From the NCBI GenBank assembly GCA_015231915.1, contig JADGAR010000008.1:1-60350 (forward strand): DNA of 60,350 bases, written 5' to 3'. The stretch is from Magnetococcales bacterium. GTDB taxonomy: Bacteria; Pseudomonadota; Magnetococcia; Magnetococcales; Magnetaquicoccaceae. The notes under the pieces are model-generated. The model worked only from the letters and a program-made list of their open reading frames with translations. It did not search any database and was not told where the DNA came from. Shown piece by piece: positions 2,701-55,747 of the stretch. Within the stretch, counting starts at the first letter, position 1. The number at the start of each line of letters is the position of its first letter. The position numbers and the translations under genes were made by a program.

Positions 2701-3027
2701 GGCATCGATTCCTTTTGGCTGGCGGTTGCTGGTCCGATGAATCTTTGTGGCTTAAGGTCTCCCTCTTTCCCGGTTTGTCCCGTGCTGTCTTGTTAAATAA
2801 AATTTCTGCAAAATATATGCCAGTTAATATTATCATGCCATATTATAACGAAATCATAAAATTACCCCACATGCGGATCTTTGGAAAAATACAAAATATT
2901 GCACGCATAAGTGGGACCGGGAACTCCGCGAAAAATTGGTATATTATGTTTTTCGAGCAATTATCGGGCAATGTCCAAACGATTGCAGGTGCAAGAAAAA
3001 TTGCAGCCCAGCCACAGGAGATCCGCC
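2701..3027. promoter_or_regulatory. AT-rich divergent intergenic region
   Basis: This 327-base gap separates the leftward CheX-like pair from the rightward reductase gene. It is much richer in A and T than its surroundings between about 2795 and 2990 and contains TATAAT-like hexamers (for example around 2940), as expected for back-to-back promoters. I see no RNA gene or conserved ORF in it. Confidence 0.4.
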
Positions 3028-3774: not shown

Positions 3775-3827
3775 TTGGCCGACATGACTGTCCGTCTCAT
3801 CCGGGGGTTTTTGAAGGGGGAATGAAC

Positions 3828-4838
3828 ATGCGCATCTTGCTTGGTTTGTGGATGGTCTTTTGGTTGCTGACCGCTCCGGCATGGAGCGCGCCGGAAGAGA
3901 CCCCCATGCGCACCGTCGTCAGCGTGGTGGGACCCCGCAACCTCTCCTATCTGCCCATCGACCTGGTGCCCATCCTCCAGGCGGATCGGGCGGAAGGGAT
4001 CGAGGTCCGCCTGAAACATGTCGAAGGGGGGGGATTGGCCATCAAGGAGCTGCTCGCCCGCAACAGCGAGTTCACGGTGGTGGGGTTTCCGGCCCTGATG
4101 TCCCTGAAAGCCAACGGCGGGGAACTGGTGGGCGTGGCCGCCCTCTCCGACCGCCCGCAATTCGTCCTGATGGTGCGCGCCGCCCTGCGCGACCAGGTAC
4201 GCCGCATCGCGGACCTCAAGGGCCGCATCGTCGGCGTGCATACCAGCGCGGTCAACGCCAAGACCGTGGCCCAGCAACTCCTGGAACTCCTGTTGCGCTC
4301 CGACGGCCTGTCGCCTCGGGAGGTGCGGGTCATCTCCTCCGGTCAGGAGTGGGCCAAGCGCACCGCCATGCTCGACTCCGGACAGGTGGACGCCATCGTC
4401 TCCGAGGAGCCGTTCGCCTCCACCCTGCTGGGCGCGGGCAAGGTCTTCTTCCTGGTCAATCTGGCAGAACCCGAAAGCACCAACAACATCGCCGGGGCCA
4501 ATGTCCTGCACGCCGTCCTGGCCACCCGCCCGGACGTGGCGGCCAACGAGCCGGAAAAGGTCAGGCGCCTCGTCGCCGCCGTGCGTCGCGCCCTGCAGTG
4601 GATCGCCTCCCATTCCCCGGAGGAGCTGGTGGAACAATTGCGGATCGCCGATGAACCGGAAAAACAATATCTCCTGACATGCCTGCGCAAATATCCACGC
4701 CTGTTCAGCAACGATGGCCGCTTTTCCAACCGGCAGATCGCCGAAACCAATACCTTTTTCCATACCAGCACCCCGGAAGCCAAAGGGGTGCGCATGGAAG
4801 ACCTCATCAACGACCAGTGGGCCGGACGCAAAGAGTGA
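3828..4838 (+). CDS. Periplasmic ABC-type solute-binding protein (NMT1/TauA-like)
   Basis: A signal peptide is evident (MRILLGLWMVFWLLTAPAWSA), giving an exported protein of about 310 residues. The mature part has the NMT1/THI5/SsuA-like periplasmic fold signature: ligand-cleft loops GGGLAIKELLA and AALSDRPQFVL, a second lobe around LKGRIVGVHTS and a hinge at DAIVSEEPFAS. Such proteins bind nitrate, sulfonates, pyrimidine precursors or similar small anions. No ABC permease or ATPase follows. Instead the stop codon overlaps the GTG start of a histidine kinase (GTGA), so the protein probably works as a sensory subunit that presents ligand to the kinase. The start at 3828 is preferred over 3822 because the GGGGG ribosome site is correctly spaced only for it. 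Confidence 0.8.
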   Translation: MRILLGLWMVFWLLTAPAWSAPEETPMRTVVSVVGPRNLSYLPIDLVPILQADRAEGIEVRLKHVEGGGLAIKELLARNSEFTVVGFPALMSLKANGGELVGVAALSDRPQFVLMVRAALRDQVRRIADLKGRIVGVHTSAVNAKTVAQQLLELLLRSDGLSPREVRVISSGQEWAKRTAMLDSGQVDAIVSEEPFASTLLGAGKVFFLVNLAEPESTNNIAGANVLHAVLATRPDVAANEPEKVRRLVAAVRRALQWIASHSPEELVEQLRIADEPEKQYLLTCLRKYPRLFSNDGRFSNRQIAETNTFFHTSTPEAKGVRMEDLINDQWAGRKE

Positions 4839-7273
4839 TCCATCCCGTTGGCAAGGCCGAAAAAGGCGTCCTGCTGCGCCAGGCGACCATCCGCGTGGCG
4901 GCTGTCACCCTGGTGATGATCGCCGCCATCGCCCTGGCCACCCTGGGCTTCCAGCACACCGCCATGGAAAAAGAATCCCGCAAGGTCATGACCTCGCTGG
5001 AGCGGTTCTACGCGGAAAAGATCGTCCTGCTGGAACAGGAGTGGCAGGAGATGGCCATCTCGCTCCACAATCTGCTCGAAATGCACGACCTGTTCCGCGA
5101 CCCTGCCCTCGGCTGGGAACGCATGCGCGAAACCCTGGCCCTGGAGAACCATCCCCTCTTTCCCCTGATCCTGGTCGTCGCTCCCGATCACCGCGTCCTG
5201 TTTCACTACGCCACCTCACCGGTCACCCTGCCCGAGCGCTTCGTCCCCTCCGGACAGACCGGCTGGCATGAGGATCCCCGCTCCAGGGTCCTCTACCGCT
5301 GGATCGCGCAACCCTTCTGGCTGGGGGCACTGGGACAGGGCGAACTGCTTTTTTTCGTGGCCATCGAAAACGGTCTGCTCTTCCGCAACGCCCTGCCCTT
5401 CACCGACCTGTTCCTCCTGCAAGGCGATCGCGTCGCGGCCAGCTCCCTGGGCAATCTCGCCAGCGACCCGGAGTCGTTGCGTCCGGGGAGCATCGCGGCA
5501 GACAAAAGCCGTCTGGATCAGCTCTCCATCCCCTGGGGCGAGCCGGCCTCCCACGCCCCCCGGCTGGTGATCCGCCATCACAGCACCCCGATCTTTTCGC
5601 CCATGGAGATCCTCCTGGCGGGCATCACCCTGTTCCTTTTGCTGGCCCTGCTCTTCTGGCTGACCCTGGGGGTGTGGCTGGTCCGCCTGACCCGCCGCAT
5701 CGCCACCCTGGGATGGGCTGCCCGGGGTTTCTCCAGAAAATATCATCTCTCCAGCGCCATGCGGCATCAGCTCAACACCGTCTCCGGCGCGGGACACGAC
5801 GAGGTGACCTCCGTGGTCACGGCGCTGCTTCTGGCCACGGACTCGGTGGAAAAAGAACTTCAGGAACGCCAGCGCGTCCAGGCCGAACTGCAAAAGATCG
5901 GCCACGACAACCGGCAACTGCTCGAACAGGCCGAGCACTACCTGACCTACCAGCGGGTCATCAACGGCCTTTACGCCATCTCCTACCTCAAGATCCCCCT
6001 CAAGGAACAGCTCGAGCGGGCGCTGCAATTCATCCATTCGGTCCCCTGGCTGGCGGTGCAGGCCAAGGGGGCGGTCTTTCTGGCCGATCCCCAACACCGC
6101 ACCCTCCACCTGATCGCCCACCAGGGACTCAATCCGGAGCTGGTCTACCTTTGCCAACAGGTGGCCTATGGCCACTGCCTGTGCGGTCGCGCCGCCCTCG
6201 CCGGGACCATCGTCCACGCCGACTGCATCGACGACCGTCACGACATCCGTTTCGACGGCATGCTCCCCCATGGCCACTACTCGGTGCCCATTCTGTCCGG
6301 TTCCGATCTGCTCGGGGTATTGACCTTCTACCTGGAAGCCGGCCAGATCCGCAATCCGGACGAGGAGAACCTGCTGCAGGCCATCGGCAGCACCCTGGGC
6401 AACATGATCGAACGCAAGAAACTGGAAGAGGCCCTGCTCAGCCAGAACCTCCTCCTGGAAGAGAAGGTGGCGGAACGCACCCGCGAGTTGCAGGCCCATC
6501 TCACCTCCCTGCGAGCGGCCCAGGACCAGCTGATCCAGTCCGAGCGGCTGGCGGCCCTGGGGGGGCTGGTGGCGGGCATCTCCCACGAGATCAAGACCCC
6601 GGTGGGCATCAGCTTCACCGCCGTCACCTACCAGGAGTCGGAGTTGACGAAATTCCTGGCCATCCAGGAGCAGGGACAACTGCGCCGGGAGGACCTCGCC
6701 AACTTCCTCGACAACCTCCGGGAGGCCACCCACCTCATCAAGGCCAATCTGAAACGGGCCTCGGACCTGATCCTGAGCTTCAAGCAGGTGGCGGTGGATC
6801 AGACCAGCCAGGAAAGGCGCCGCTTCCACATGAGGAGCTATCTCGAGGAGACCATCTTCACCCTGCGACCGAAATTGAAGAAGACCCATCATCAGGTCAC
6901 CATCGACTGCTCCGAGGAGATCGAACTCGACAGCTATCCGGGGGCCATTTCGCAGATCATTTCCAATTTTGTCATCAATTCGCTGAATTATGCCTTTGAC
7001 GATCAAGATGAGGGAAAAATCACTATCACGGTTGCCCTGCAGCATGATATGCTGCATCTTGTTTACAAGGACAATGGCCGGGGCATGGACCGGGAGACTG
7101 CGAAGCAGATCTACGAACCGTTTTTCACCACCAATCGCAATCACGGGGGGAGCGGTCTGGGCATGCACATCGTCTACAACCTGGTGACACAGCGTCTCAA
7201 GGGGTCCATCGACTGTATCAGCGCCCCTGGCGAAGGGACGGAGTTCCACATTCAATTTCCCATGGATGGGTAA
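4835..7273 (+). CDS. Membrane sensor histidine kinase with GAF domain
   Basis: About 812 residues. A membrane helix near residues 17-38 and a second near 257-285 bracket an extracytoplasmic sensor region. A HAMP-like linker, a GAF domain (about 380-520), a coiled coil and then the kinase core follow: H box ISHEIKTP (His near residue 583), N box region FVINSLNYAF, and G boxes DNGRGMD and GGSGLGMHI. The GAF domain contains a Cys-rich loop (YGHCLCGRAA) that might bind a cofactor. GTG start at 4835 overlaps the stop of the solute-binding protein gene, indicating translational coupling; the longer open frame would run through that gene in another phase. It should autophosphorylate and transfer to the downstream HD-GYP regulator, which begins three bases after its stop. 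Confidence 0.85.
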   Translation: MIHPVGKAEKGVLLRQATIRVAAVTLVMIAAIALATLGFQHTAMEKESRKVMTSLERFYAEKIVLLEQEWQEMAISLHNLLEMHDLFRDPALGWERMRETLALENHPLFPLILVVAPDHRVLFHYATSPVTLPERFVPSGQTGWHEDPRSRVLYRWIAQPFWLGALGQGELLFFVAIENGLLFRNALPFTDLFLLQGDRVAASSLGNLASDPESLRPGSIAADKSRLDQLSIPWGEPASHAPRLVIRHHSTPIFSPMEILLAGITLFLLLALLFWLTLGVWLVRLTRRIATLGWAARGFSRKYHLSSAMRHQLNTVSGAGHDEVTSVVTALLLATDSVEKELQERQRVQAELQKIGHDNRQLLEQAEHYLTYQRVINGLYAISYLKIPLKEQLERALQFIHSVPWLAVQAKGAVFLADPQHRTLHLIAHQGLNPELVYLCQQVAYGHCLCGRAALAGTIVHADCIDDRHDIRFDGMLPHGHYSVPILSGSDLLGVLTFYLEAGQIRNPDEENLLQAIGSTLGNMIERKKLEEALLSQNLLLEEKVAERTRELQAHLTSLRAAQDQLIQSERLAALGGLVAGISHEIKTPVGISFTAVTYQESELTKFLAIQEQGQLRREDLANFLDNLREATHLIKANLKRASDLILSFKQVAVDQTSQERRRFHMRSYLEETIFTLRPKLKKTHHQVTIDCSEEIELDSYPGAISQIISNFVINSLNYAFDDQDEGKITITVALQHDMLHLVYKDNGRGMDRETAKQIYEPFFTTNRNHGGSGLGMHIVYNLVTQRLKGSIDCISAPGEGTEFHIQFPMDG

Positions 7274-38617: not shown

Positions 38618-38783
38618 AGTTCAATCCGCGCCCCTGCGCGGGGGGCGACTCCTCCGGAACCGACTTTCTGACGTAGCGCTGGCAGTTTCAATCCGCGCCC
38701 CCGCCCCCGCGCGCGGGGCGACCCCCCGAACAAGATCGGAAACGGGGTCAGCAAGTTCCCCCCGCCCCCGCGCGCGGGGCGAC
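38618..38783 (-). repeat. Degenerate leader-distal CRISPR repeats
   Basis: The last three units of the array depart from consensus in length and sequence: a 5'-altered unit at 38618-38649, a 38-bp unit at 38685-38722 with six extra bases in the GC stem, and a 29-bp unit at 38755-38783 that has lost most of the TCAATCCGCG part. This decay marks the oldest end of the array and confirms its polarity. Confidence 0.85.
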
Positions 38784-41700
38784 CCCTGTGCGCAGCGCCA
38801 ATTCGTCCAGCTGCCTGGTTTCAATCCGCGCCCCCGCGCGCGGGGCGACTTGGTCGTGTTTTATGGCGCGCGCAATCGCGTCGTTTCAATCCGCGCCCCC
38901 GCGCGGGGGACGACGACCGGTGGCCGGCACGGAGCGGTCGCTGATGGTGTTTCAATCCGCGCCCCCGCGCGGGGGGCGACGCACTGGCGGGAGGAAGTGA
39001 ATTGGAATTTAAGAGTTTCAATCCGCGCCCCCGCGCGGGGGGCGACGCCGACGGCGGGCGAATTGGTGTCCATCCTCAAGTTTCAATCCGCGCCCACGCG
39101 CGGGGGGCGACTCCACAGAGGCGCTGGACGCCATGACCTTGTCGGTTTCAATCCCCCCCCCCCCGCGCGGGGGGCGACGCCATCTTAATCTGATGCTGGA
39201 GTGCTATCCTGGTTTCAATCCGCGCCCCCGCGCGGGGGGCGACATCGCCTTCCTCTGGAGTCGGTGCCGGTTGACCTGTTTCAATCCGCGCCCCCGCGCG
39301 GGGGGCGACCTCCGCTCCAAGGTGGTCGCTCCGCTCCGATCAAGTTTCAATCCGCGCGCCCGCGCGGGGGGCGACCCTGACGGTGCGATGCGCAGACGTG
39401 CCGGGAAGAGTTTCAATCCGCGCCCCCGCGCGGGGGGCGACATCGTGGGAGCGGTGCGCCATCGGCAGGATTGGGTTTCAATCCGCGCCCCCGCGCGGGG
39501 GACGACCTCCCGCACCGTCACCCTTGATGGCAACGGTGTTTCAATCCGCGCCCCCGCGCGGGGGGCGACGATCAGTATCCGCGCCATGGAACCGCGCGCC
39601 ATGGTTTCAATCCGCGCCCCCGCGCGGGGGGCGACGGCTCGCACCCTGTTGGGTCAGATTGCCATAGGGTTTCAATCCGCGCCCCCGCGCGGGGGGCGAC
39701 TGCGTGCGGATGGCACATGGGTGGTGCAGGCTGGCGTTTCAATCCGCGCCCCCGCGCGGGGGGCGACCCGGCAGTGCCGCGCCATCATTGCCTGGTCGGC
39801 GTTTCAATCCGCGCCCCCGCGCGGGGGGGCGACGCAAGTCCAGAGCGTTGATCCACACCGGGGAAAAGTTTCAATCCGCGCCCCCGCGCGGGGGGCGACC
39901 CGGCCTGGTATGCGCCCCAGAGGTTCGTGTCAAGTTTCAATCCGCGCCCCCGCGCGGGGGGCGACGACCCAGCGCGCTGGAGGTTGCACCACCATTGCGG
40001 TTTCAATCCGCGCCCCCGCGCGGGGGGCGACGACCGTGCGCGCCACGCCCATCGAGACGTTCAAGTTTCAATCCGCGCCCCCGCGCGGGGGGCGACATCT
40101 CGCCCTGGCGGCGAGGGTGGAGGTGCTGGAGTTTCAATCCGCGCCCCCGCGCGGGGGGCGACCTATCCTTGGCAGGAGGAGTGCCGCACTACGGTTGTTT
40201 CAATCCGCGCCCCCGCGCGGGGGGCGACGGTCAAACGTGAGGCGGTTCCGGGGGTGGAAGGTTTCAATCCGCGCCCCCGCGCGGGGGGCGACCCATGACG
40301 CAGGGTCATGAGTCAGACCGCACTCAAAGTTTCAATCCGCGCCCCCGCGCGGGGGGCGACTTATCGTCGATGGCATATTGATCCAGCCAAAAACGTTTCA
40401 ATCCGCGCCCCCGCGCGGGGGGCGACGCGCAACAATGCCAATGAAGACTGATGGTTGACCGTTTCAATCCGCGCCCCCGCGCGGGGGGCGACGTTGTCGG
40501 CACTCCTTTTCGGGTATGGGGTAGCCGTTTCAATCCGCGCCCCCGCGCGGGGGGCGACGCCAGTTTTTCGATTTGTTGCGTGTTCAAGACCAGTTTCAAT
40601 CCGCGCCCCCGCGCGGGGGGCGACTTGCGCATCCACTCAATCCCCGCACGCACACCGATGTTTCAATCCGCGCCCCCGCGCGGGGGGCGACGCACAACTG
40701 GACCACCAAGGAGGGCAAGGCCGAAGTTTCAATCCGCGCCCCCGCGCGGGGGGCGACCGTCAAATCACGTTCCCAAACGGCGATACGCCACAGTTTCAAT
40801 CCGCGCCCCCGCGCGGGGGGCGACAATTATGCAACGGCGCGGGATCACGGAAGCAGGGGTTTCAATCCGCGCCCCCGCGCGGGGGGCGACTTCGAAAGCG
40901 CCGCCAGTTACCCAGGGAATGGAGTTTCAATCCGCGCCCCCGCGCGGGGGGCGACTCGGCGGAATCAGGGGCTGGAGCACGGAGATGGGTTTCAATCCGC
41001 GCCCCCGCGCGGGGGGCGACGCTCGCCGGTGCAGTGCTGCTACCACCTCAAGGAGTTTCAATCCGCGCCCCCGCGCGGGGGGCGACCGCATACGGTTGCC
41101 CGTGCTGCGCGCGCTTGTTGTTTCAATCCGCGCCCCCGCGCGCGGGGCGACGTGATTGGACCGGTTACACGCACCAATGGCGGGTTTCAATCCGCGCCCC
41201 CGCGCGGGGGGCGACCATACAGATGCGGTATCCTCCCAGATTTTGGGTAGTTTCAATCCGCGCCCCCGCGCGGGGGGCGACTGGCGGCCTAGGTCGCGAC
41301 GATGACACCGTTCGGTTTCAATCCGCGCCCCCGCGCGGGGGGCGACGACGAGGGCAACCGGAGACGAAGTATCCTTGCAAGTTTCAATCCGCGCCCCCGC
41401 GCGGGGGGCGACATCACGGGTTAGATGATTGCTCCCCGGATTTGGGGTTTCAATCCGCGCCCCCGCGCGGGGGGCGACGAATTGCCTTCCAGGCTATTGT
41501 TCTAAGGCGCTGTTTCAATCCGCGCCCCCGCGCGGGGGGCGACTTCTGATTTCGCCCTTGGACGCGTTGATGCACGGGGTTTCAATCCGCGCCCCCGCGC
41601 GGGGGGCGACGTTCCCGGCCAGCAGGGTGGTGCCGTTGTCGGGTTTCAATCCGCGCCCCCGCGCGGGGGGCGACGTAGGCGTACCTCAACTGCCAGGATC

Positions 41701-44700
41701 ACCCGGACGTTTCAATCCGCGCCCCCGCGCGGGGGGCGACGAATATGGGCAAACATTCAATCCTGGATCGCGAGTTTCAATCCGCGCCCCCGCGCGGGGG
41801 GCGACCGTGGCGCCGACAGGCGGCAATGCGGTGGGCAAGGTTTCAATCCGCGCCCCCGCGCGGGGGGCGACACAACGGCTGGCGGATATCAATCGGTTGC
41901 AGAGGGTTTCAATCCGCGCCCCCGCGCGGGGGGCGACGCTGATTGCATGCACAGGGTGATCGGCTACGAGGTTTCAATCCGCGCCCCCGCGCGGGGGGCG
42001 ACACCCGCCGGGGGGCGTGATGGAAACGACAGGGCGTTTCAATCCGCGCCCCCGCGCGGGGGGCGACGCAATGGCAATCATCCGGAATTGCCGACATAAA
42101 CGTTTCAATCCGCGCCCCCGCGCGGGGGGCGACCTTGTCGTGTTTTATGGCGCGTGCTATCGCGTCGTTTCAATCCGCGCCCCCGCGCGGGGGGCGACCT
42201 GTCTGCTGGATGGCCTCGAAAACGTCTTGCTGGTTTCAATCCGCGCCCCCGCGCGGGGGGCGACATTGCTGATCTTGCCGGTCAATAGATAATCCTCCGT
42301 TTCAATCCGCGCCCCCGCGCGGGGGGCGACTGTGTGTTTGCTGGCAATGGGAGCGAGGTACTGGTTTCAATCCGCGCCCCCGCGCGGGGGGCGACCCTGC
42401 GGGGTGCCGTCTTGGGAGGGGCGCAAAGTGTTTCAATCCGCGCCCCCGCGCGGGGGGCGACGCTATATTATGGAGCGGTTGACCCGTCAATGGGCGTTTC
42501 AATCCGCGCCCCCGCGCGGGGGGCGACTGGGTATTGACGAGAGCTGCCGATTCGTTTTTCTGTTTCAATCCGCGCCCCCGCGCGGGGGGCGACTTTATAC
42601 CACACCCTTTAGGGGGTGTGGTTAAATGTTTCAATCCGCGCCCCCGCGCGGGGGGCGACCCGGGGTCTCCACCCTGGTGACCGGATCAACATGTTTCAAT
42701 CCGCGCCCCCGCGCGGGGGGCGACTTGCGCAAACCGTTGATTCTGTTGACTTCTTCGAGTTTCAATCCGCGCCCCCGCGCGGGGGGCGACCAGCCCTGGC
42801 CAAGCGGGTGATGGGCGATGGCAACGTTTCAATCCGCGCCCCCGCGCGGGGGGCGACTTGACTTTTTTTGAGTGTTGTCGCAAGATTAAAGTTTCAATCC
42901 GCGCCCCCGCGCGGGGGGCGACGTTGACGGAGGATTTCTGGCTCCGTTGCGGTCCGTTTCAATCCGCGCCCCCGCGCGGGGGGCGACGTCTGGACGGCAA
43001 ACACGGACCTTGCCCACTGTGGTTTCAATCCGCGCCCCCGCGCGGGGGGCGACCCTCCCAGGTTGACGGTTGATGTGGACGAATTCGGTTTCAATCCGCG
43101 CCCCCGCGCGGGGGGCGACGGTTCAAGGCGGTGAGGTGGTGGGAGACCTGCCGTTTCAATCCGCGCCCCCGCGCGGGGGGCGACCGTTTGGTCCGTTCAT
43201 CGAGGCCGTTTTGCAGCGTTTCAATCCGCGCCCCCGCGCGGGGGGCGACTTGGCCGCAGTCTGATCGGCAGCGATTTTTGTCTTGTTTCAATCCGCGCCC
43301 CCGCGCGGGGGGCGACGGGTACGTGTGGCACCCTCGCCGACATGGCGGCGTTTCAATCCGCGCCCCCGCGCGGGGGGCGACCGGAAAAACCGGACGGCGA
43401 GTTGATGCCACCAAAGTTTCAATCCGCGCCCCCGCGCGGGGGGCGACATTTCGGCGATGCAACCGTTTGTCGAGGCTGGAAGTTTCAATCCGCGCCCCCG
43501 CGCGGGGGGCGACCAACAAGCGCGTATCATCGATCCCTTCTTGTCCGGTTTCAATCCGCGCCCCCGCGCGGGGGGCGACGGTCGATTACGCCAGGCGCGG
43601 AGGATGAGCCATCGTTTCAATCCGCGCCCCCGCGCGGGGGGCGACAGGAGGTGTCATTGCTGGAGGGGTCACGCCCTGGCGTTTCAATCCGCGCCCCCGC
43701 GCGGGGGGCGACGATCCACCCGTTGCCACCCAGGAAAATCACCATCGTTTCAATCCGCGCCCCCGCGCGGGGGGCGACGATTAGAAATCACCTGCTCGCC
43801 CTGGTGCAGACGTTTCAATCCGCGCCCCCGCGCGGGGGGCGACCAGCGCGAGTTGGCGGCCTGCTGCTGCGAGACTCAGTTTCAATCCGCGCCCCCGCGC
43901 GGGGGGCGACTATCTTTGGCCGCATCGGTGCCGGGTTTTTCGAGGTTTCAATCCGCGCCCCCGCGCGGGGGGCGACCAAATTCCTTCAAAAATTCATCCA
44001 GTTTCATGGAGTTTCAATCCGCGCCCCCGCGCGGGGGGCGACGATCACTTCCCTCCACCCCTCCGCAGCTTGGCGGTTTCAATTCGCGCCCCCGCGCGGG
44101 GGGCGACGGGCGACAAATTTCGCGTCCGGCATGGGGTAGAAGTTTCAATCCGCGCCCCCGCGCGGGGGGCGACTATCATGTTCAATTTTTTGTCAATCAA
44201 ATGTGCTGTTTCAATCCGCGCCCCCGCGCGGGGGGCGACGTGGTCAGATCGCCGACCACCGCCGCCGGAACGTTTCAATCCGCGCCCCCGCGCGGGGGGC
44301 GACTATCGCCTGGCGAGTGTGATACAACTGTATCCAACGTTTCAATCCGCGCCCCCGCGCGGGGGGCGACCAACAAGCGCGTATCATCGATCCCTTCTTA
44401 TCCGGTTTCAATCCGCGCCCCCGCGCGGGGGGCGACGCCGCCAAGCGCTCCCTGCCCGATAACGACCGCAGTTTCAATCCGCGCCCCCGCGCGGGGGGCG
44501 ACTTACAGCGCATCCACCCTGGCCGCCAGGGCCTGGTTTCAATCCGCGCCCCCGCGCGGGGGGCGACGCTGATCTTTCCGCCGGTCAATAGATAATCCTC
44601 CGTTTCAATCCGCGCCCCCGCGCGGGGGGCGACAACGAGGGCGATACCAAGGTGGTCGACACCACGGGTTTCAATCCGCGCCCCCGCGCGGGGGGCGACC

Positions 44701-47700
44701 GAGTGTGTCGGTTTCGGCTGACGTCAACGTCAGTTTCAATCCGCGCCCCCGCGCGGGGGGCGACGTCAAGCAGGCTAAGATCAACCTCAATCGCGAAGTT
44801 TCAATCCGCGCCCCCGCGCGGGGGGCGACGCCTCTATTATGTGGTGCGCGGGTGGGGAGTGGGTTTCAATCCGCGCCCCCGCGCGGGGGGCGACTCCGCA
44901 ATCTGTGGCCATGTCTGTGTCGAGAGCGTTTCAATCCGCGCCCCCGCGCGGGGGGCGACTGGGTATTGACCAGCACTGCCGATTCGTTTTTCTGTTTCAA
45001 TCCGCGCCCCCGCGCGGGGGGCGACCTCACCGAGGGTGGAGACGATGCGGAATGGCGCAGTTTCAATCCGCGCCCCCGCGCGGGGGGCGACGCAAACCGA
45101 TTCCTCGCCGCGAGATCTACATGCCGTTTCAATCCGCGCCCCCGCGCGGGGGGCGACATGCTGAATAGGCTTGACGCTTTGGACATCGATGTTTCAATCC
45201 GCGCCCCCGCGCGGGGGGCGACTCCTAACGGCGGCTGGTGTCCACGATTTTATGGCGTTTCAATCCGCGCCCCCGCGCGGGGGGCGACAAGGATTGCGGC
45301 CACAAGTGGCAATGGCATGCTGTTTCAATCCGCGCCCTCGCGCGGGGGGCGACGAGGAGGCGGTTGAATGGCGAGAGTTTGTTGAAGTTTCAATCCGCGC
45401 CCCCGCGCGGGGGGCGACCAATCAGCCCTTCCAGGGCGCGCAGTTGCTCGTTGTTTCAATCCGCGCCCCCGCGCGGGGGGCGACAGGATTCGCAAAGCTG
45501 TTCAACGTGCAGATGCGGTTTCAATCCGCGCCCCCGCGCGGGGGGCGACTTCTGCGCTACCTGCAACGGCAGGGGAAGACGCTGTTTCAATCCGCGCCCC
45601 CGCGCGGGGGGCGACCCGCGCGAGGCCCTGGCTCCCGAGGGGATGCGCAAGTTTCAATCCGCGCCCCCGCGCGGGGGGCGACGGCGCACGGACAAGGCCC
45701 TCGCCGAAGCTTTGGGTTTCAATCCGCGCCCCCGCGCGGGGGGCGACAAGGGCATCGTGGAGCAACTCAACATTGTGGAGGTTTCAATCCGCGCCCCCGC
45801 GCGGGGGGCGACGACAACCTCGTACAACTCTTTGGCGTTTGCCATGTTTCAATCCGCGCCCCCGCGCGGGGGGCGACCAGGCAAATCCCGCCACAAAATC
45901 TGGCACGACCTGTTTCAATCCGCGCCCCCGCGCGGGGGGCGACGAACATCAGCCGCAAACGGGTCGATGTCCTATGGGTTTCAATCCGCGCCCCCGCGCG
46001 GGGGGCGACTGCTCCAGGGTGATATTGTTGTCGCGCAGCACCGTTTCAATCCGCGCCCCCGCGCGGGGGGCGACACAACGCCAGTTCCTCGAAGCACCAT
46101 CTTCATCAGTTTCAATCCGCGCCCCCGCGCGGGGGGCGACGCCAGACAGTACCAATAGGGCGTACCAGGCGGTGTTTCAATCCGCGCCCCCGCGCGGGGG
46201 GCGACACTACAAGCCGGGAGATGGACCGCCCCGACGGCAGTTTCAATCCGCGCCCCCGCGCGGGGGGCGACGTTGTCGGCACTCCTTTTCGGGTATGGGG
46301 TCGCCGTTTCAATCCGCGCCCCCGCGCGGGGGGCGACTGCATCGTTGGCCACCCTCCGACGACTCAAAATCGTTTCAATCCGCGCCCCCGCGCGGGGGGC
46401 GACCCAGGGAAATCGACAGCGTAGTGCCTCCCTTGTCGTTTCAATCCGCGCCCCCGCGCGGGGGGCGACGAGGCCGTTTTGCAGCAAATTGGCGTAGCTC
46501 TTGTTTCAATCCGCGCCCCCGCGCGGGGGGCGACTCCCAACTCACGCGCTTTGACGGCGTAGTTGGCAGTTTCAATCCGCGCCCCCGCGCGGGGGGCGAC
46601 CTCTCACTCCAGTAATTCTTTGCCCATCATCAGGGTTTCAATCCGCGCCCCCGCGCGGGGGGCGACCAACTCGCCGTCCGGATGCTCTGGCGTCAGCAGA
46701 GTTTCAATCCGCGCCCCCGCGCGGGGGGCGACGTCATCCACTTTCCATCATTGATGCATGTGGAATGTTTCAATCCGCGCCCCCGCGCGGGGGGCGACAT
46801 GCGGATGCGGTGATCGGCGGATTTCCATGTCAGTTTCAATCCGCGCCCCCGCGCGGGGGGCGACGTGATGTTGCTCCCTGTTGGCGGGGGGATTGCGTTT
46901 CAATCCGCGCCCCCGCGCGGGGGGCGACAAAAATGTCTGTCGCTGTCGGTCCCTGGCTGTGTTTCAATCCGCGCCCCCGCGCGGGGGGCGACGGCTTATA
47001 GGGGTTGGCACCACCACCCCATCGGCGTTTCAATCCGCGCCCCCGCGCGGGGGGCGACATGCGGTGCGCCATCAACTTGGCATTGGAGTAGCGTTTCAAT
47101 CCGCGCCCCCGCGCGGGGGGCGACCCGTGTCCGCGACCTACTCATGCTCAAACGGCAAGTTTCAATCCGCGCCCCCGCGCGGGGGGCGACGCGACGCATG
47201 CGCGCAACTCGCGTCCACTCTCGGTTTCAATCCGCGCCCCCGCGCGGGGGGCGACCTCATAGGTCAGACCGGCATACTCCGCGAGCCAGGTTTCAATCCG
47301 CGCCCCCGCGCGGGGGGCGACCGGCTGCTGGCCGTGCGCTTTGCCCGCACCGTGGTTTCAATCCGCGCCCCCGCGCGGGGGGCGACTGGCCGATGAGGCC
47401 ATCGGGGCAAACATCCGGGTGTTTCAATCCGCGCCCCCGCGCGGGGGGCGACTGGTTTATCTTGTTTCGCATGGCCTTTTGTCGGGTTTCAATCCGCGCC
47501 CCCGCGCGGGGGGCGACTCCAATTGATCGAGGCCGACCGGGTGAGCAATCCGTTTCAATCCGCGCCCCCGCGCGGGGGGCGACTGGCGATTTTCCTTCAA
47601 GCGTTGGGGTGGAACAGAGTTTCAATCCGCGCCCCCGCGCGGGGGGCGACGGCAATGAGCGCCGTCTGGCTGGAGTACACGCGCAGTTTCAATCCGCGCC

Positions 47701-47783
47701 CCCGCGCGGGGGGCGACTGATGGCGGACTGGCGGATCAGCTCGTCCCTGAAGTTTCAATCCGCGCCCCCGCGCGGGGGGCGAC
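38618..47783 (-). CRISPR. Type I-C CRISPR array, about 140 repeats
   Basis: A 32-bp repeat (plus strand begins GTTTCAATCCGCG and ends GGGGGGCGAC) recurs every 65-67 bases from 38618 to 47783; I count about 140 units by eye, with 33-36 base spacers. The repeat contains a CGCCCCC/GGGGGCG stem with a GCGC loop, the substrate shape for Cas5c. In type I-C systems the crRNA strand ends in ATTGAAAC, so transcription runs leftward from the AT-rich leader next to cas2. Consistently, degenerate repeats sit at the left (trailer) end: 38618 (5' end altered), 38685 (38 bp), 38755 (29 bp, internal loss). Scattered variants: 38883 and 39475 (GGGGGACGAC), 39080, 39145 (34 bp), 39344, 39801 (33 bp), 41120, 44076 and 45322. 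Spacers are mostly unique; near-duplicate pairs are listed as findings. Confidence 0.98.
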
Positions 47784-47998
47784 CCTCACCATATAACAAA
47801 TTGATTATATGGATAAATTTACAACATATCCGCGAACAATATTTTCATCATAAAAAAAATTATAAAACTTCTAAAATATCCATTCCTCCTTATCACCATG
47901 AAATGCAACAATTTATCTTTCAAGCAACCCAATTGTAAAAATCGTTGTGCGCTTGAGGTTCGCGGAGGTGGGACAAGAGCCAAGCCGATAAAAAATGA
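47784..47998 (-). promoter_or_regulatory. CRISPR leader and pre-crRNA promoter region
   Basis: 215 bases between the first repeat and the cas2 stop codon. The part next to the array (47784-47940) is strongly AT-rich, unlike everything around it, which is characteristic of leaders used by Cas1-Cas2 for oriented integration. On the minus strand a TATAAT is present in the T/A-rich stretch near 47855 but I find no convincing -35, so the promoter position is only approximate. No protein-coding signal is seen. Confidence 0.75.
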
Positions 47999-48289
47999 TC
48001 ACACAATTAACGGCCCATCAATATTGTAACTGCTTTTTATGCCGAAATGCTCCACGCGCTGCTGCCACTCGGTGCCTAAATGATAAAAGCGAATACTGTC
48101 CTGGGTAAGATCGATAATCTCAAGCAAGGTTTGCTTGAATTTTGTAAATTGTGCCGGATTCACCTTGCACTCGAATACGGAATTCTGCACGCGCTGCCCG
48201 TAATCCATGCATACCTTGGCGACACGGCGCAACCTGCTGCGACCGGCGGCGTTGGTCGTTGCAACGTCATATGCCACAAGAATATACAT
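47999..48289 (-). CDS. cas2: CRISPR-associated endoribonuclease Cas2
   Basis: 96 residues, ferredoxin-like fold. [10 protein letters not shown] carries the conserved first-strand Asp, and the [12 protein letters not shown] segment and C-terminal FYHLG are family typical. Cas2 dimers bridge two Cas1 dimers in the spacer-integration complex. It is the last gene of the operon, 12 bases after cas1, and its stop borders the leader. AGG-containing ribosome site is present upstream of the ATG at 48289. Confidence 0.96.
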
Positions 48290-48301: not shown

Positions 48302-49342
48302 TCACCGCCATAAAAAAGCCGGATAGGCATCCAAATCCCCGCGTAAATGACGCGCCAATAACCGCGCCTGCAGGTGCGGCAGCAATCCATACGTCACCTT
48401 TTCATTGAGAAAGGGGTGCATGAATTCTTCCTGCTTACGTTCCTGCCAGGCAATCAGTACCTTCTTCCTGGATTCCTCGCGCAGCAAGACCGCGCCATTC
48501 TCCCGCCGCTCGAAATCGGCTCCGGTTACCTGCCTGCGATTGATCAGACTCAAAGCCAGACGATCCGCCAAGACCGGACGAAACTCCTCCATCAAATCCA
48601 ATGCCAACGAAGGACGACCAGGACGATCACGATGCAGGAATCCTACCGCCGCATCCAAACCGGACGCCTCCAAGGCAGAACGACAATCGTGCCCCAACAT
48701 GCCATAAAGAAAGGAAAGCAACGCATTGACCGGATCCAGGGGAGGCCGTCGATTGCGCCCGGAAAATCGCAAATCCGGATCGCCTCCCGACAGTAAATGT
48801 TCAAACACGCCAAAATACCCTTGCGCCGCATTCCCTTCCTCGCCACGCAGCGCATCCGCGCTCTTGGCCATCGCCACCCCTCGCAATGCCCTTCCCAGAT
48901 CATCCACGGCCTGGGACAACGCCTCGGCCCCAGGCGCTTCGGGACGATCCCGTCGCGCCCGCTGCAACACGCTGCGGCAATTGGCGATCTTGGCCGCAAC
49001 ACAGTTGGCCGCAATCGCCAGACAGGCCTCCTCCCGGTCCGCGCGCCGGTACTGCTCACGCCGCAACAGCACGTTCCCCCTGGCAAAGCCGGTTGCAGCC
49101 GCCAGAAAATGGCCGTATGGCGTACAAAACGACAACGTGATCCCCCCCTCGGCACATGCGGCCATCAATTGGGCCGATGCCCCGATGTCCCAACCCAAAC
49201 AGACGATACCGTCCAGATTGTGCAAGGGAATCCGCAGCCGGGTCTCCCCTTCCACCCGCACCTCCACCGCTTCGCCCTGCTTGCGCAACCATGCCCCTTC
49301 CTGGGTCACGAACAAGGTATTGAGATGTTGCGCCATCGACAT
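48302..49342 (-). CDS. cas1: CRISPR-associated integrase Cas1 (type I-C)
   Basis: About 346 residues. N-terminal beta domain (LNTLFVTQEGAWLRKQGE; LHNLDGIVCLG) and helical catalytic domain with the metal ligands Glu in EGNAAQGYFGVF, His in FLHRDRPGRPSLA and Asp/Glu in EEFRPVLADRLAL. The C-terminal half also shows NRRPPLDPVNALLSFLYG, a Cas1 hallmark. It inserts new spacers at the leader end with Cas2 and Cas4. The start at 49342 overlaps the cas4 stop as TAATG; a second ATG lies two codons downstream. Confidence 0.96.
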   Translation of the reverse strand: MSMAQHLNTLFVTQEGAWLRKQGEAVEVRVEGETRLRIPLHNLDGIVCLGWDIGASAQLMAACAEGGITLSFCTPYGHFLAAATGFARGNVLLRREQYRRADREEACLAIAANCVAAKIANCRSVLQRARRDRPEAPGAEALSQAVDDLGRALRGVAMAKSADALRGEEGNAAQGYFGVFEHLLSGGDPDLRFSGRNRRPPLDPVNALLSFLYGMLGHDCRSALEASGLDAAVGFLHRDRPGRPSLALDLMEEFRPVLADRLALSLINRRQVTGADFERRENGAVLLREESRKKVLIAWQERKQEEFMHPFLNEKVTYGLLPHLQARLLARHLRGDLDAYPAFLWR

Positions 49343-49998
49343 TACTCCTCGCTCAACAGCCTTTCGATACGCTCCGCAAACCAGACGGATGCCTGCCCCA
49401 GGGCCTCTCGCCGACGGGGCAGGCAAACCTCCAACAAAGAACAGCCACGACACACACCGGCACGATAGACCCCAGGGGGCGTCACACCCCCTGCCAACAA
49501 ACCGTGCAGCCTACGCGCGGCCTCCCCGGTCGCCCGACGCAATTCCGGCGTCAATTCCACCACCTCGCGACGCCGCGACTCGCCATAAAACAGTGCCCCC
49601 TTCGTCACGGGCTGTCCCAGCATCTCCTCCAGACACAGCCCCTGCGCGCACAACTGGATCCGGTCGGCCTCATGGGACTTCGAACGACCCCGTTTGTACT
49701 CCACGGGCACAATCGCCCGCCAATGACTGCCGGTCCCAACGTGAAACTCCACCACATCGCACTGACCGATCAACCCCAACGCCTCCGAGGCAACGGGCAG
49801 ACCGCGGGCGATGCGCAGCCCGGGTCTGCCCTCCCCGGTCTCCTCATGGACCCTGGCATGCAAAACGTTCCCCTCGGCGGTGCGACGATTGTCGATCCAC
49901 ACCCCTTCCAAATGGATCAAGGCGCATTGCCGCTCGCAATAAATCAAATGTTGCAAAGCCGACAATGGCGCATATCCCTCTTCCGACCCTGGAACCAT
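49342..49998 (-). CDS. cas4: CRISPR-associated exonuclease Cas4 (type I-C)
   Basis: About 218 residues with RecB-like nuclease and iron-sulfur motifs. The first Cys is in LIYCERQCALIHLEGVW, EGNVLHARVHE supplies the conserved His, GQCDVVEF and VPVEYKRGRSK the acidic and Lys catalytic residues, and CRGCSLLEVCLP the three C-terminal Cys for the 4Fe-4S cluster. Cas4 trims prespacers so that spacers derive from PAM-flanked sites. The start at 49998 overlaps the cas7 stop (TAATG) and the stop overlaps cas1 in the same way. Confidence 0.95.
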   Translation of the reverse strand: MVPGSEEGYAPLSALQHLIYCERQCALIHLEGVWIDNRRTAEGNVLHARVHEETGEGRPGLRIARGLPVASEALGLIGQCDVVEFHVGTGSHWRAIVPVEYKRGRSKSHEADRIQLCAQGLCLEEMLGQPVTKGALFYGESRRREVVELTPELRRATGEAARRLHGLLAGGVTPPGVYRAGVCRGCSLLEVCLPRRREALGQASVWFAERIERLLSEE

Positions 49999-50936
49999 TA
50001 CAGCCGCCGGATCAGCGTGACCCCGTCGGCCACCCCTGCACGACTGGCGCCCACGGCGAGCACCTGGTCCAGAGCAACGCCGTCGAAGGTGACCAGATAG
50101 TCCGCAAATGACCTGGGCGGCTTGCCTGGCGTGCGCGCGCACACCGCAACCCGATCGAACAAGGCATGAGCCGCCGCACTCCCCAGTGCGTTTTCATGCT
50201 GAAATACCAACAACGTCCGCGCCGCCATCTCCCCGCGACTGGCGGAACGGTCATGCTCGAACATGTTTTGCAACGCCTCCCACAGCAGCTCCAGATCCGC
50301 TGCGGAAAAACCCGTCTGGCTGGCCAGCGGCGCGCTGACGAATCCATGGGTGCGATACAGGCCATAGGGTATGGTGAATTTGCGACCCATGGTCCGGTTG
50401 TCCCCTTCCTGCTTCTTCGCCTCCTCCTCGGTGGTCACCGCCATGCGGGTGATGCTGTGCTCGGCGGCGATCACCGGATCGCTGCTGCGGCCAAAGGTGA
50501 ACTGCACCGGCCCGCGTACCTGACCGCAGTTGGTCCCGGTGGTCATGACCGCCCCGAATGCCCGCACATCGAAAAAGTTGCGGCACATCCATTCGCGCGC
50601 CTTTTCCGTCTGCTCCCCTCCCCCCTTGCGTTTGCCCTCCGCTTTCTCCTGCGTGAAACCCAGCGCGGCAAATGCGCGATCATGCTGATGATTCAAGATC
50701 GCCTTCTCCCGCACATAGATCTCGTTGCGTGGCCCGCTGGCACTGTCGTCGGCATTCTGGTGGCCGGCATGACGCAGTTGCACGTAGTTGCGGATCTTGC
50801 GCTTGAGACAAACATCGGTCACCAGACCGTGACCGGTCTCCGCATCGACCCGCGGCAGATTGCCGGCGTCCGGATCGCCGTTCGGATTGCCGTCCTTGAC
50901 ATCAAACAGGTAAACGAAGTCGTAACGATGGTTCAT
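49998..50936 (-). CDS. cas7: Cascade backbone protein Cas7 (Csd2)
   Basis: 312 residues. Starts [22 protein letters not shown], the standard Cas7c N-terminus, with [14 protein letters not shown], the [14 protein letters not shown] loop and [13 protein letters not shown] further on; [11 protein letters not shown] and the C-terminal segment match Csd2. Multiple copies form the helical filament around the crRNA spacer. ATG overlaps the cas8c stop (ATGA) and has AAGGAGG ahead of it, which is the strongest ribosome site in the operon and fits the high copy number of this subunit. Confidence 0.96.
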
Positions 50937-51298
50937 GGTTGTTCCTCCTTGGCAGTGAAAAAATCCTGTCGTTGATGATAATAGCCGATGGCAAACAGCC
51001 CCTGCTCCTCCAGGGAGAGCGTGGCCGGAATCTGCGTAATGGCGCTCATGATCTCCTGGACCGTCTTTTCGCGATTCACCTTGGCGCCCACGGGGAGCTT
51101 GCCGAGATGGTGCTGATAGGTGCGCAACAGGCGCGGAAACACCGTGCCGGGCGTGGCCGAGGCCGCGCCGTAATAGCGGTCCCGGATGGTGGCGTTGATC
51201 CCGGGCAACGCCTCCGACTGGGTTTTCTCCAGGGCGGCGAACAGACGGCCCAGACGGTAGGCCGGATCAGTGCGGGTGGTATCCAGACTCACGGTCAT
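50933..51298 (-). CDS. cas11c: Internal in-frame small subunit Cas11c (predicted)
   Basis: Within cas8c an AAAGGAGAG purine run immediately precedes an in-frame ATG at 51298 ([19 protein letters not shown]), and a GTG at 51292 follows with AGGAG at ideal spacing. Translation from either gives about 120 residues, nearly all helical, ending at the cas8c stop. In Desulfovibrio vulgaris and other type I-C systems the small subunit is made exactly this way, by internal initiation in cas8c, and is of similar size. The match in position, length and ribosome site makes this likely but unproven here. Confidence 0.7.
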
Positions 51299-52714
51299 CT
51301 CTCCTTTCCAACGGGGTGAACGGTTCAGCCATGCCTTGAGCATGGCTGCGCGCAAATCGTTAATCTGTCGATTGGGATGTTGCCGGTCGTCCCGGTCGGC
51401 ACGTATCCGCCGGATCACGGCAGACGCCACGGCATCGGGATAGGCGGTCTTGTTGACGATGGCCCGCATCAGGGCGCCCTCCAGCAATGGCGCCACATCC
51501 TTGCCGTCGCGGGCGGTCTCCCTGAGCAGCATCCAGACGGGCGGGAATTCACGGCCATGGGGTGGACGCACGATCCGCAAGTCGGCAAAATGGGCGCGCA
51601 GGCGCTCCACAAAATCCCCAAGGGTGGAAACATGCCAGAAACGCACGGAAATCCGTCCCGCGTTCGGCGAAAGTCCCAGCAGGTAAAACGGCGTGCCAGG
51701 ATCGTCCGGCAGCAGGTGGCTCCCTTCCCGCAAGGCCTGCATGCACACCCTGAGTTGGTCCAGAACCACCGGATCCTGACCTTCCGGCGCGCTCTCGTCC
51801 GCTGTTTCCACACCATTGGAAAAGAGCATGGCGAGCCAATCCTCGGACACGGTTTTCTTGCCGGTCCAAAAGATCACGGTGTCGTTGTGCATGCGCAGGC
51901 GATGCCTGTCGCGGCGCGTCCCGTTCAGCAGGGCGTTGAGGGCCGTGCAGTAGCGGAACGTGGCCAGTTCCGAGACCGGGGCATTATGGCTTTGCGCCTT
52001 ACCATAGGAGGTGAAGGCATCGCAATTGAACGAAACCAGCAGGGCGCCGGTGGATTGGGCATCCTTGACCCCCTTGATCTTCGGTTCGTGAATTCTCGCC
52101 AAGGGCTGATCCCGGCTCCCGCTGATCAGGCACATCCCCAAACGTCCGGTGCCCTTCTCCCGCCCCTGCCACCAGCGACGCACGGCGGGCCGGTCATGCA
52201 CATACCCCTCTTCCCCCAGGATCCGAAACACCCCGAAGCCGCTGCCCAGTTCCGCCAGCAGGGGATGGTTGACCGCCTCCTCCGGGGACCAATTTTCCAG
52301 AAAGCGGCATACCGCCGCATACGCGGGATCCGGGATCGCCTGCTGTGCCGCAAGATGGTGGTCGCGAAACCTGCAAAACGATTCCAGGGTGCGCTCCGGC
52401 TTGGCATCCTTGGGGTCGTATCCCAGCAGGTAGCGGGTATTGTCCCACAAAAAACCGGGATTGATCCCTTGTCCGGTCGGTTTGGCCTGGCCGGGCAGAC
52501 GCATGGGTTTTGGTCGGCGCACGGTTTTCTCCTTGCCGCGCGCAGCCGGGATGACGTGATCCTCCTGCTCGTCGGCAAAGGCGTGCAGCCTCCCCTCGGC
52601 AGTCAGCACCACGGCAAAGGAGACGTTCTGGGTGCTCCAGCCCGGCTCGGCGATGCCGTAGTCCGGATCGAGGGAGAGCCGGTCGTAGAGTTCGTATAGG
52701 GCTTGCAGGATCAT
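50933..52714 (-). CDS. cas8c: Cascade large subunit Cas8c (Csd1)
   Basis: 593 residues. N-terminus [13 protein letters not shown] and the [11 protein letters not shown] region are typical of Csd1, as are [49 protein letters not shown] (a family hallmark) and [18 protein letters not shown]. Cas8c recognises the PAM and recruits Cas3. The start at 52714 overlaps the cas5 stop (ATGA); a longer open frame to 52816 would overlap cas5 heavily. The 3' part includes a likely internal start for the small subunit Cas11c. Confidence 0.95.
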
Positions 52715-53439
52715 TGTCCGAGCACCTCCTGCGTCTCGCGCCGACAGGCGGCCACGTCCACCACGCCATCCACCATGCGGGCGCGGAAGAAACGCGGCTG
52801 GCACCGTTCGTCGCAATGGTGCGGACGGGCGGTGATCCCGGGATGGCCGGCATGCTCCATGTCATCGAGCATGAATCCCAGGTGCCGTTCGTTGCGCAAC
52901 TCCTCGGGACACTGGGAAAACCCCTCCGGGCCGACTGCGGAAAAATAGGCCGGGAACTCCCGACACCCCAGGTAGGGGCGATGAAAACAGGCGCCATCGC
53001 GCACCCGGCGGTTGAACTGGTCCAGGTGCTTGGCCACCGGCTCGGCCAGGGTGTCGCCATTGCGCTCCCGCGCCTCCAGCACGTCGATGTGGGCCTCGAT
53101 GCCATACAAAACGTTGGTCAAAAGCAGGGTGGCCCGCTGCTGGCGGTTCTCTTCGGCGTACACCACCGGCGCATCGCCCTGGCCGCGCATGGCCGCTTGG
53201 CTCACCGTGACCTTGAGCGGGTCCACCTCGTTGCGCCGGATGTTGGCGAACCGGATCGGGGCCAGCACCCGGATGCGGTCGATCACCCAGCGCATCTGGG
53301 GTTTCCAGTAGATGGCCTCCAGCACCCCGCGCGCCCCGGACGGGGTCATGACATCGTAGGAGACCCGTTCGGCCTTCATCTCCGGACGGGTCCAGCAGGC
53401 GTATTCGCCCCAGACCAGCAATCGAATTCCTTGGCTCAT
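52711..53439 (-). CDS. cas5c: Cas5c (Cas5d), pre-crRNA endoribonuclease and Cascade subunit
   Basis: 242 residues. RLLVWGEYACWTRPEMKAERVSY and TPSGARGVLEAIYWKP are the N-terminal signatures, with NEVDP, QRATLLLTNVLYGIEAHIDV and RDGACFHRPYLGCREFPAYF further on. In type I-C, Cas5 replaces Cas6: it cuts at the base of the repeat stem and stays on the 5' handle. By comparison with Bacillus halodurans Cas5d, Tyr44 and His117 occupy the positions of catalytic Tyr46 and His117; the Lys116 counterpart is not evident by eye. GGGAG lies upstream of the ATG; 31 bases separate it from cas3. Confidence 0.94.
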   Translation of the reverse strand: MSQGIRLLVWGEYACWTRPEMKAERVSYDVMTPSGARGVLEAIYWKPQMRWVIDRIRVLAPIRFANIRRNEVDPLKVTVSQAAMRGQGDAPVVYAEENRQQRATLLLTNVLYGIEAHIDVLEARERNGDTLAEPVAKHLDQFNRRVRDGACFHRPYLGCREFPAYFSAVGPEGFSQCPEELRNERHLGFMLDDMEHAGHPGITARPHHCDERCQPRFFRARMVDGVVDVAACRRETQEVLGQ

Positions 53440-53470: not shown

Positions 53471-55747
53471 TCAGACGATCAGGTCAGCCGGGTCACATCC
53501 TTCCTCCCGAGCGACCCGCAATCCGGTTGCGGACGCATAATCCCTGGCAAGATCCAACAGGACCCAGAAACGCTCATGCAGACATTCGATGGCCAGCGCC
53601 CGCGCCAGCCGGTCGTGTTGCCAAACCGGCACGCTCACCACGTAACGCTGCAATACCCGGGTCGCGCGGGCCAGCAGCGCCGGCTCCGGATGGTGCAAGG
53701 CGCGCAGCCGTCCGATCTCCTGGCGTGCCCGATCATCCCACGGGATGATGACGGGACGTTCCCGGTTTTCGATCAGCCGGAACCCTTCCGTCGCAGTGCG
53801 GAATTGAAACAAAAACGGCTCCTGACGATCCCCGAACCGAAAGCAATCCATGATGGAGGGGCGATCCCAGCCGCTGCCGGTCTCGCCTCCCTTTTGCCAG
53901 TAGTGCAGACGGAAATAGCGCTCGATGGCCGCTGGCGAGAGGCAATCGGCGCGTCCTTCCGGCAGGGCCAGCACCTCTTGCGCGCATTGCGCCGCCTGGC
54001 CAAGATCCCCCGCCGGATGGAAATGGGCCTCGGCAGGGATGAACAGCCAGGTGACCCCAAGATCCGGCAGGCGGCCCTCCCGGTTGCAGCGACCGGCGGC
54101 CTGGGCGAGGGCATCCAGGCCGGCCATGGCCCGACAGACCACCGGAAAATCCAGGTCCACCCCTGCCTCCACCAGTTGGGTGGCCACCACCCGGCAGGGT
54201 TGGCTGGTTTGCGTCAGCCGCTGTTTGATATGATCCAGGAGGCTCAGGCGATGGGCCGGGCACATCAGGGCGCTCAAGTGGAAGCAGGTCTCGCCGGGCA
54301 CCCGTGCGGCCAGGCTCTGATAAAGCTCCCTGGCGTGGCGGCGGGTATTGACGATGGCCAACACCCGTTCCTGCCCGGCCAGAAGCGCTGCGGTCTCCTC
54401 CAGGGAGAGGGATCCCCGATCCTCGATCCGCACCCGGCGGAGCGCGGCATGCAGACCGGCGGCTTCCGGGACGATCTGCCGAATTTCCTGCAGGCCGATC
54501 TTGAAGGATTCCCGCCACTGCAAGGCAGGCTGGGTGGCGGTGGCAAGCACCACCGTGCAGCCGTAATGGCGGACCAGCTCCCGCAGGGCCGCCAGACAGG
54601 GCGCCAGCAGAGATACCGGCAGGGCCTGCGCCTCGTCCAGGATGATGACCGAACGGGCGATGCGATGCAGTTTGCGGCACTCCCCCGGACGATTGGCGAA
54701 CAGGGTCTCGAAAAAGCGCACGTTGGTGGTGACCACGATGGGGGCATCCCAGTTCTCCGTGGCCAGGCGCGTCTCCTCGGAGGCCAGCGAGGCATGGTGC
54801 TCGAGCACGATCTCCTCCCCCAGGGGGGCGAAGGCCTCCCGATAGACCCGCGCGTTCTGTTCGATGATGCTGGTGAAGGGAATGGCGCAGATGATCCGCC
54901 GCAAGCCGTGCCGCGCCGCGTGCCGCAACCCGAAGGCAAGCCCGGAGAAGGTCTTGCCCCCGCCTGTGGGGACGTTGAGCGCGAAGTTGCCCGGCGCCTC
55001 GATCGCGGCCTGCAGGCAGGCGCGCATCACCTCCGCGCGGTAGCGGCCCACCGTGCCGACGGCATGGGGAAATTTCGCTGCCAGATAACCTTGCAGATGG
55101 TCCGCCAGCTCGGCCATGGACGGCACGGCCTGTTCCCGGCTGACGGCCCGCTCCGGGTTCATGAACGACTCGGTGGCCAGAAAATCGGCATCCTTCAGAC
55201 AGGAAAAGAGCATCCGCGTGAAAAAGGCGCAGGCAAAGGCATCCCGGGGCAAAGGCAGGGGCCTGGGAAATCCGGGGGCTGTGAGCAGTCCGGGGGGGAT
55301 GAACTCCTGCCAGGGTTCGATCGCCTTGCGCAGGCGCTGTTTCAAGACGGCCTCGCCGGTGCCGCTCCAATCCGGCAATCCGGCGTGGTGGCCGGCGATG
55401 GCGAAGGCGAACAGGAGTCCCACGCCGGGAATGGTCTGCACGGCGTGTTGTGCCCCTGCCGTCGCGTGATCCACCCGGCCCCGCCTTTCCAGGGCATGGG
55501 CATCGTCCAGGCCGGCCAGCAGGTAGCTTTGGAATGCCCGTGACCCCTTGCCCAGGTCATGCCACCAGCCGAGCAGTCGCCCGGCATCCTCTGCCAGGCT
55601 GGCCAGGCCTGGGGGGGCGCCGGCGGGGATCATTTCCAGGGCAAAGCGGGCTGCCCGTGCGGCGGTGCGCTCGAGATGGCCCGCAGCATCGGCGCAGAGG
55701 GGTTCCTTCTCTTTTGTATGTTGATGCAGATGAGCATACAGAATCAT
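53471..55747 (-). CDS. cas3: Cas3 helicase-nuclease (HD domain at N-terminus)
   Basis: 758 residues. The HD nuclease domain has WWHDLGKGSRAFQ, DHATAGAQHA and AGHHAGLPDW. Helicase motifs follow: NVPTGGGKTFSGLAF (Walker A), IILDEAQALP (Walker B, Gln where DEAH has His), LATATQPAL (motif III), and in the second lobe NTRRHARELY, QLVEAGVDLDF and QAAGRCNREGR (motif VI). It is recruited by Cascade to unwind and degrade target DNA 3' to 5'. First gene of the operon; a plausible promoter lies 50 bases upstream. The C-terminal part beyond the helicase is usual for I-C. Confidence 0.96.
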   Translation of the reverse strand: MILYAHLHQHTKEKEPLCADAAGHLERTAARAARFALEMIPAGAPPGLASLAEDAGRLLGWWHDLGKGSRAFQSYLLAGLDDAHALERRGRVDHATAGAQHAVQTIPGVGLLFAFAIAGHHAGLPDWSGTGEAVLKQRLRKAIEPWQEFIPPGLLTAPGFPRPLPLPRDAFACAFFTRMLFSCLKDADFLATESFMNPERAVSREQAVPSMAELADHLQGYLAAKFPHAVGTVGRYRAEVMRACLQAAIEAPGNFALNVPTGGGKTFSGLAFGLRHAARHGLRRIICAIPFTSIIEQNARVYREAFAPLGEEIVLEHHASLASEETRLATENWDAPIVVTTNVRFFETLFANRPGECRKLHRIARSVIILDEAQALPVSLLAPCLAALRELVRHYGCTVVLATATQPALQWRESFKIGLQEIRQIVPEAAGLHAALRRVRIEDRGSLSLEETAALLAGQERVLAIVNTRRHARELYQSLAARVPGETCFHLSALMCPAHRLSLLDHIKQRLTQTSQPCRVVATQLVEAGVDLDFPVVCRAMAGLDALAQAAGRCNREGRLPDLGVTWLFIPAEAHFHPAGDLGQAAQCAQEVLALPEGRADCLSPAAIERYFRLHYWQKGGETGSGWDRPSIMDCFRFGDRQEPFLFQFRTATEGFRLIENRERPVIIPWDDRARQEIGRLRALHHPEPALLARATRVLQRYVVSVPVWQHDRLARALAIECLHERFWVLLDLARDYASATGLRVAREEGCDPADLIV

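Follow-up and report, generated by a model that had tools for sequence, protein, structure and literature searches.

The window analysed here is the whole stretch of 60,350 nucleotides (positions 1 to 60350 of contig C122 from the 4.02 Mb draft genome of a Magnetococcales bacterium). It contains a long CRISPR array with a full type I-C cas operon beside it, coding for Cas8c/Csd1, Cas5c, Cas7/Csd2, Cas3, Cas4, Cas1c and Cas2. The cas genes were assigned via NCBIfam models, mostly above the curated cut-offs; the core of Cas3 scored slightly below its cut-off and the HD domain above.

38618..47783, minus strand: CRISPR array, 140 repeats and 139 spacers by array parsing; distal ~300 nt degenerate
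47784..47998, minus strand: AT-rich putative leader, judged by its position between cas2 and the first repeat
47999..48289, minus strand: cas2
48302..49339, minus strand: cas1 (type I-C Cas1c)
49342..50142, minus strand: cas4; true start probably at about 49970
49998..50936, minus strand: cas7 (Csd2)
50933..52816, minus strand: cas8c (Csd1)
52711..53439, minus strand: cas5c
53471..55747, minus strand: cas3 (HD nuclease and helicase)

The crRNA orientation of the array is the minus strand, with the leader side at high coordinates, and the spacers run from the oldest at low to the newest at high coordinates. They were numbered from the leader end, S1 being the newest and S139 the oldest. The repeats are 32 nt long (GTCGC...ATTGAAAC; consensus on the crRNA strand GTCGCCCCCCGCGCGGGGGCGCGGATTGAAAC), and array parsing gave spacers of 33-35 nt. 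Decay is evident at the distal end (38618-38914), where the final repeats are heavily substituted and irregularly spaced. TTC was found as the PAM in 40 of 72 and 20 of 25 cases, mainly from sister arrays, and S4 supplied TTC for the present array. Gene content (Cas3-Cas5c-Cas8c-Cas7-Cas4-Cas1-Cas2), repeat, spacer length and PAM are all those of type I-C CRISPR-Cas systems with a TTC PAM, from which the present system does not differ; it is a complete and ordinary representative whose array is long.

From the nucleotide sequence, five pairs of near-identical spacers far apart in the array had been reported to share their start points. Array parsing confirmed all ten spacer coordinates, and the members of each pair begin at the identical base on the PAM side in crRNA orientation. 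The reported differences also proved correct, with one mismatch each in S23/S111 and S52/S65, three in S43/S80, four in S86/S136 and a 3-nt indel in S49/S84.

S23, 46272..46305, minus strand: newer; differs from S111 at position 4, in the seed
S111, 40493..40526, minus strand: older partner of S23
S52, 44371..44404, minus strand: newer; differs from S65 at position 5, in the seed; synonymous Leu codon at the N-terminus of a Mu-like major capsid protein
S65, 43514..43547, minus strand: older partner of S52
S49, 44568..44601, minus strand: newer; has an extra GGA codon
S84, 42265..42298, minus strand: older; without GGA, runs 3 nt further (AAT) and is therefore also 34 nt long
S43, 44960..44993, minus strand: newer; mismatches to S80 at positions 19, 20 and 23
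S80, 42528..42561, minus strand: older partner of S43
S86, 42134..42166, minus strand: newer; mismatches to S136 at positions 9, 12, 31 and 33
S136, 38850..38882, minus strand: older partner of S86, within the degenerate distal end

When all spacers were compared against each other, the five pairs reached local scores of 24-31, while the maximum of the reversed-spacer null was 11. The members of a pair lie 13 to 88 spacers apart, and we found no clustering in time of the five pairs within the array, their mean separation (44.6 vs. 46.7) being no closer than random. The sequence-only reading had interpreted S86/S136 in the reverse frame, which indeed contains one synonymous Leu codon, but also two changed residues; the crRNA sense fits better, with synonymous changes in an Ile and an Ala codon. 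Three weaker pairs were absent from that reading: S20/S70 with a 16-nt overlap at a stagger of 17, S17/S67 with a 15-nt overlap on opposite strands, and S50/S117, which are homologous with opposite strands.

S20, 46470..46502, minus strand: 16-nt overlap with S70; lambda-type portal gene
S70, 43185..43217, minus strand: overlaps S20
S17, 46667..46700, minus strand: opposite-strand overlap with S67; Mu-type portal gene
S67, 43382..43415, minus strand: Mu-type portal gene; a diverged homologue with TTC PAM occurs in loci L236/L254
S50, 44503..44535, minus strand: S74-type tail-fibre gene, C-terminus; a homologue lies on contig C58 of the own genome
S117, 40097..40130, minus strand: same tail-fibre end as S50, opposite strand

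The origin of the pairs is most directly read from S49 and S84, which differ by the GGA codon, while both are 34 nt long, the shorter allele having been extended by three more bases of the template. These AAT bases of S84 could not have been supplied by any repeat, and a deletion within the array would have left a spacer of 31 nt; therefore, mutation in the array is contradicted by this pair. The spacers flanking the pair members, whose duplication the sequence-only reading had named as evidence against independent capture, are not duplicated in any case. Moreover, the four ungapped pairs contain 9 substitutions in 135 positions, compared to 7 in 4288 for the repeats counted outside the decayed distal end, an approximately 40-fold difference (Fisher p about 2e-10) which persists with p 4e-6 if S86/S136, adjoining the decayed repeats, is left out.

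The same pattern recurs in related arrays. In eight genomes of the same order, the I-C arrays (927 spacers including those of the present array) contained 28 same-start variant clusters, whose mismatch distances were divisible by three in 79 of 154 cases vs. 48.2 expected, a value reached by none of 5000 simulations. Such 3-nt periodicity characterises coding DNA that is under selection. Same-start pairs numbered 50 vs. 12 at the other 16 offsets, close to the expectation for site sampling in proportion to TTC density. Because the same-start class also leads in 42 I-C arrays of other phyla (31 vs. 7, with 8 variant clusters), the phenomenon is general. In the array of the sister genome G005, one prophage site was captured both as 34 and as 35 nt next to a TTC PAM, the extra base being the next one of the prophage. 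In addition, b12 of G005 matches its own prophage, and one variant base of b14 is present in the prophage of G009, both with TTC.

Targets were sought in a set consisting of the Mu-like prophage of G005, its capsid relatives in the order and 119 further phage loci. At the protein level, S52/S65 matched the N-termini of Mu-like major capsid proteins with a score of 44 (null 30), the sole difference between the two spacers being a synonymous Leu codon. Merged S20 and S70 matched lambda-type portals with a score of 65 (null 41), and S17/S67 matched a Mu-type portal; the target genes were confirmed with PHROGs. For S23/S111, S43/S80, S86/S136 and S49/S84, no protein-level target in these phage loci stood clearly above the null. 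The phage targets are partly established, with probable assignments at the protein level for S52/S65 and the two overlapping pairs only. An initial reading of S52/S65 as DKKGSMIRA was wrong, the capsid being encoded in the reverse frame, and the initially assumed capsid family PF20036 was replaced by PF03864, which matches. Further single spacers were assigned as follows.

S1 (newest), 47718..47751, minus strand: Mu-like terminase large subunit (FRDELIRQSAI)
S4, 47518..47551, minus strand: lambda-type portal gene; 4 mismatches, TTC PAM, in contig G018:C4
S61, 43779..43811, minus strand: Mu-like tape measure
S81, 42462..42495, minus strand: Mu-like terminase large subunit

Matches at the DNA level were few, namely those of S4, S103 and S48, all in one phage contig of G018 in which reversed spacers had none. 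S103 has its closest match, with 4 mismatches, inside a phage-borne phosphoadenosine phosphosulfate reductase gene (L017:15304-16209, in the G018:C4 phage). In the host's own genome, a tail-fibre-like gene with an S74 chaperone (L019:9416-12331, contig C58) resembles S50 and S117 at its 3' end, with 5 mismatches each and no TTC PAM. Concatenated S1-S102 gave no match in the 50,697 phage records of INPHARED. For the five pairs, no exact or DNA-level protospacer was found in these records, and none at the DNA level in 61 related genomes (searched with S1-S64) or in ~1.5 Mb of related phage contigs. Codon-degenerate patterns of S86/S136 and S52/S65 gave no match in IMG/VR. A portal search of IMG/VR with a single protein returned nothing, but with an alignment of two portals it returned 40 loci.

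The Mu-like prophage of G005 carries the Mu portal (PF06074), Mu F and a capsid of the E family, and 26 of 48 genomes in the order, the host among them, contain relatives of its capsid (3 of the 26 hits weak). It adjoins the trailer end of that genome's own I-C array (G005 C56 1-21000; L121:1-11000, L221:1-10000), and 34 of the 133 spacers in that array match the prophage with at most two mismatches, mostly with a TTC PAM. This self-targeting may be tolerated by an anti-CRISPR, or the activity may have been lost, or an assembly join may be responsible. The host's own Mu-like prophage (G000:C112:8782-9690, L188), which is related to the array targets, is matched by none of the array spacers.

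In all five pairs the members share their PAM-side start, differ in the manner of coding alleles and lie between unduplicated neighbours. Together with the length-compensated indel, the excess of pair over repeat divergence, the order-wide codon periodicity and the protein-level targets of S52/S65 and the two overlapping pairs, this demonstrates that the pairs arose by independent capture of homologous sites rather than by duplication within the array, and gives good support to the earlier proposal that these sites came from related phages.

If the spacers are treated as draws from TTC sites, five same-site pairs among 139 spacers correspond to about 1,900 available sites (95% range 820-5,900). 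At about 30 TTC per kb, this represents a target pool of ~64 kb (27-197 kb), equivalent to one or two phage genomes, although acquisition hotspots would turn this pool size into an underestimate. Because five recaptures fit such PAM-limited draws, recurrent sampling of few phage lineages is sufficient to explain them, and escape is not needed. The best explanation, in which we have high confidence, is that PAM-limited, long-term resampling of related phages yields the allelic spacer pairs. The complete type I-C system would have sampled a small recurring set of related phages over a long time, including at least the Mu-like and lambda-portal-type families, and its choice of spacers would be restricted to TTC-flanked sites. 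With TTC-limited choice and repeated sampling of the same lineages, a site already sampled would be captured once more from a later relative that had diverged, and the array would retain both alleles, the older one distal. Primed adaptation via partly matching older spacers may speed up such recapture.

There is a precedent for this kind of event in the type I-C array of Legionella pneumophila ST222, where spacers of one array form pairs directed against overlapping parts of a single mobile element, LME-1 (Rao et al. 2016; PMC5071653). The newer spacer of these pairs matches perfectly, whereas the older one has seed or PAM mismatches, which was read as escape followed by primed acquisition (PMC5071653). 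In Legionella, the element is known and both interference and priming were tested, whereas the target phages of the present array are known only through relatives; in turn, the present array has five same-start pairs, and an indel pair and codon periodicity are part of the evidence. Same-site recaptures are known events, and the present array records them with unusual clarity.

The sequence-only reading had gone further and suggested that the host may have been re-immunised, possibly by priming, against escape variants. On an escape-driven reading of the pairs, a seed mutation would evade the older spacer, the mismatched crRNA would prime adaptation, and the escaped site would be recaptured, as reported for Legionella type I-C (PMC5071653). 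This would refine PAM-limited resampling and is compatible with it, and we consider it possible, if somewhat doubtful. Both one-mismatch pairs differ within the seed, at positions 4 and 5, and among the I-C arrays of 51 genomes a seed mismatch was present in 13 of 19 low-divergence clusters vs. 7.8 expected (p about 0.01 for a subset picked post hoc), and the mirrored distal window of these clusters showed no excess. However, the enrichment fails over all clusters (p = 0.11), the seed is unchanged in three of the five pairs, and resampling alone accounts for the observed number of recaptures. It is only suggested by these data, then, that one-mismatch recaptures reflect seed-escape variants.

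It is improbable that the members of the pairs were captured in separate lineages and united later by recombination of two arrays. Four of the five pairs, as well as S17/S67 and S20/S70, have one member on either side of the interval S53-S64, where a single crossover would suffice for them, but both S86 and S136 lie on one side of it, and at least two exchanges would be needed. Furthermore, the repeats are uniform without a visible junction, and no spacer is common to the array and any of the eight related arrays. Less probable still is a duplication of units followed by point mutation in the array: segmental duplications likewise yield repeated spacers in one array, as in units 110-113 and 114-117 of the G030 array (L125, G030:C158), but the copies of this clean four-unit event are identical and consecutive, neighbours included, which applies to none of the five pairs, and the indel, the low repeat divergence and the codon periodicity in related arrays also contradict it.

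As a more speculative extension, to which we give rather little credence, long I-C arrays might generally be time-ordered records of phage escape, in which low-divergence recaptures are gated by seed mismatches. The direction in which the phages evolved could then be read from the order of alleles, and the size of the phage pool (about 1,900 TTC sites or some 60 kb in the present case) from the number of recaptures. If PAM-limited resampling of related phages is the true origin of the pairs, the same-start, codon-periodic signature would distinguish recapture from duplication without phage genomes and would be applicable to any long array, and the recapture rate would estimate the amount of phage DNA faced by a host, here 27-197 kb. 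A single array would then represent a time-ordered record of how the capsid, portal and terminase genes changed in the phages attacking one bacterial lineage.
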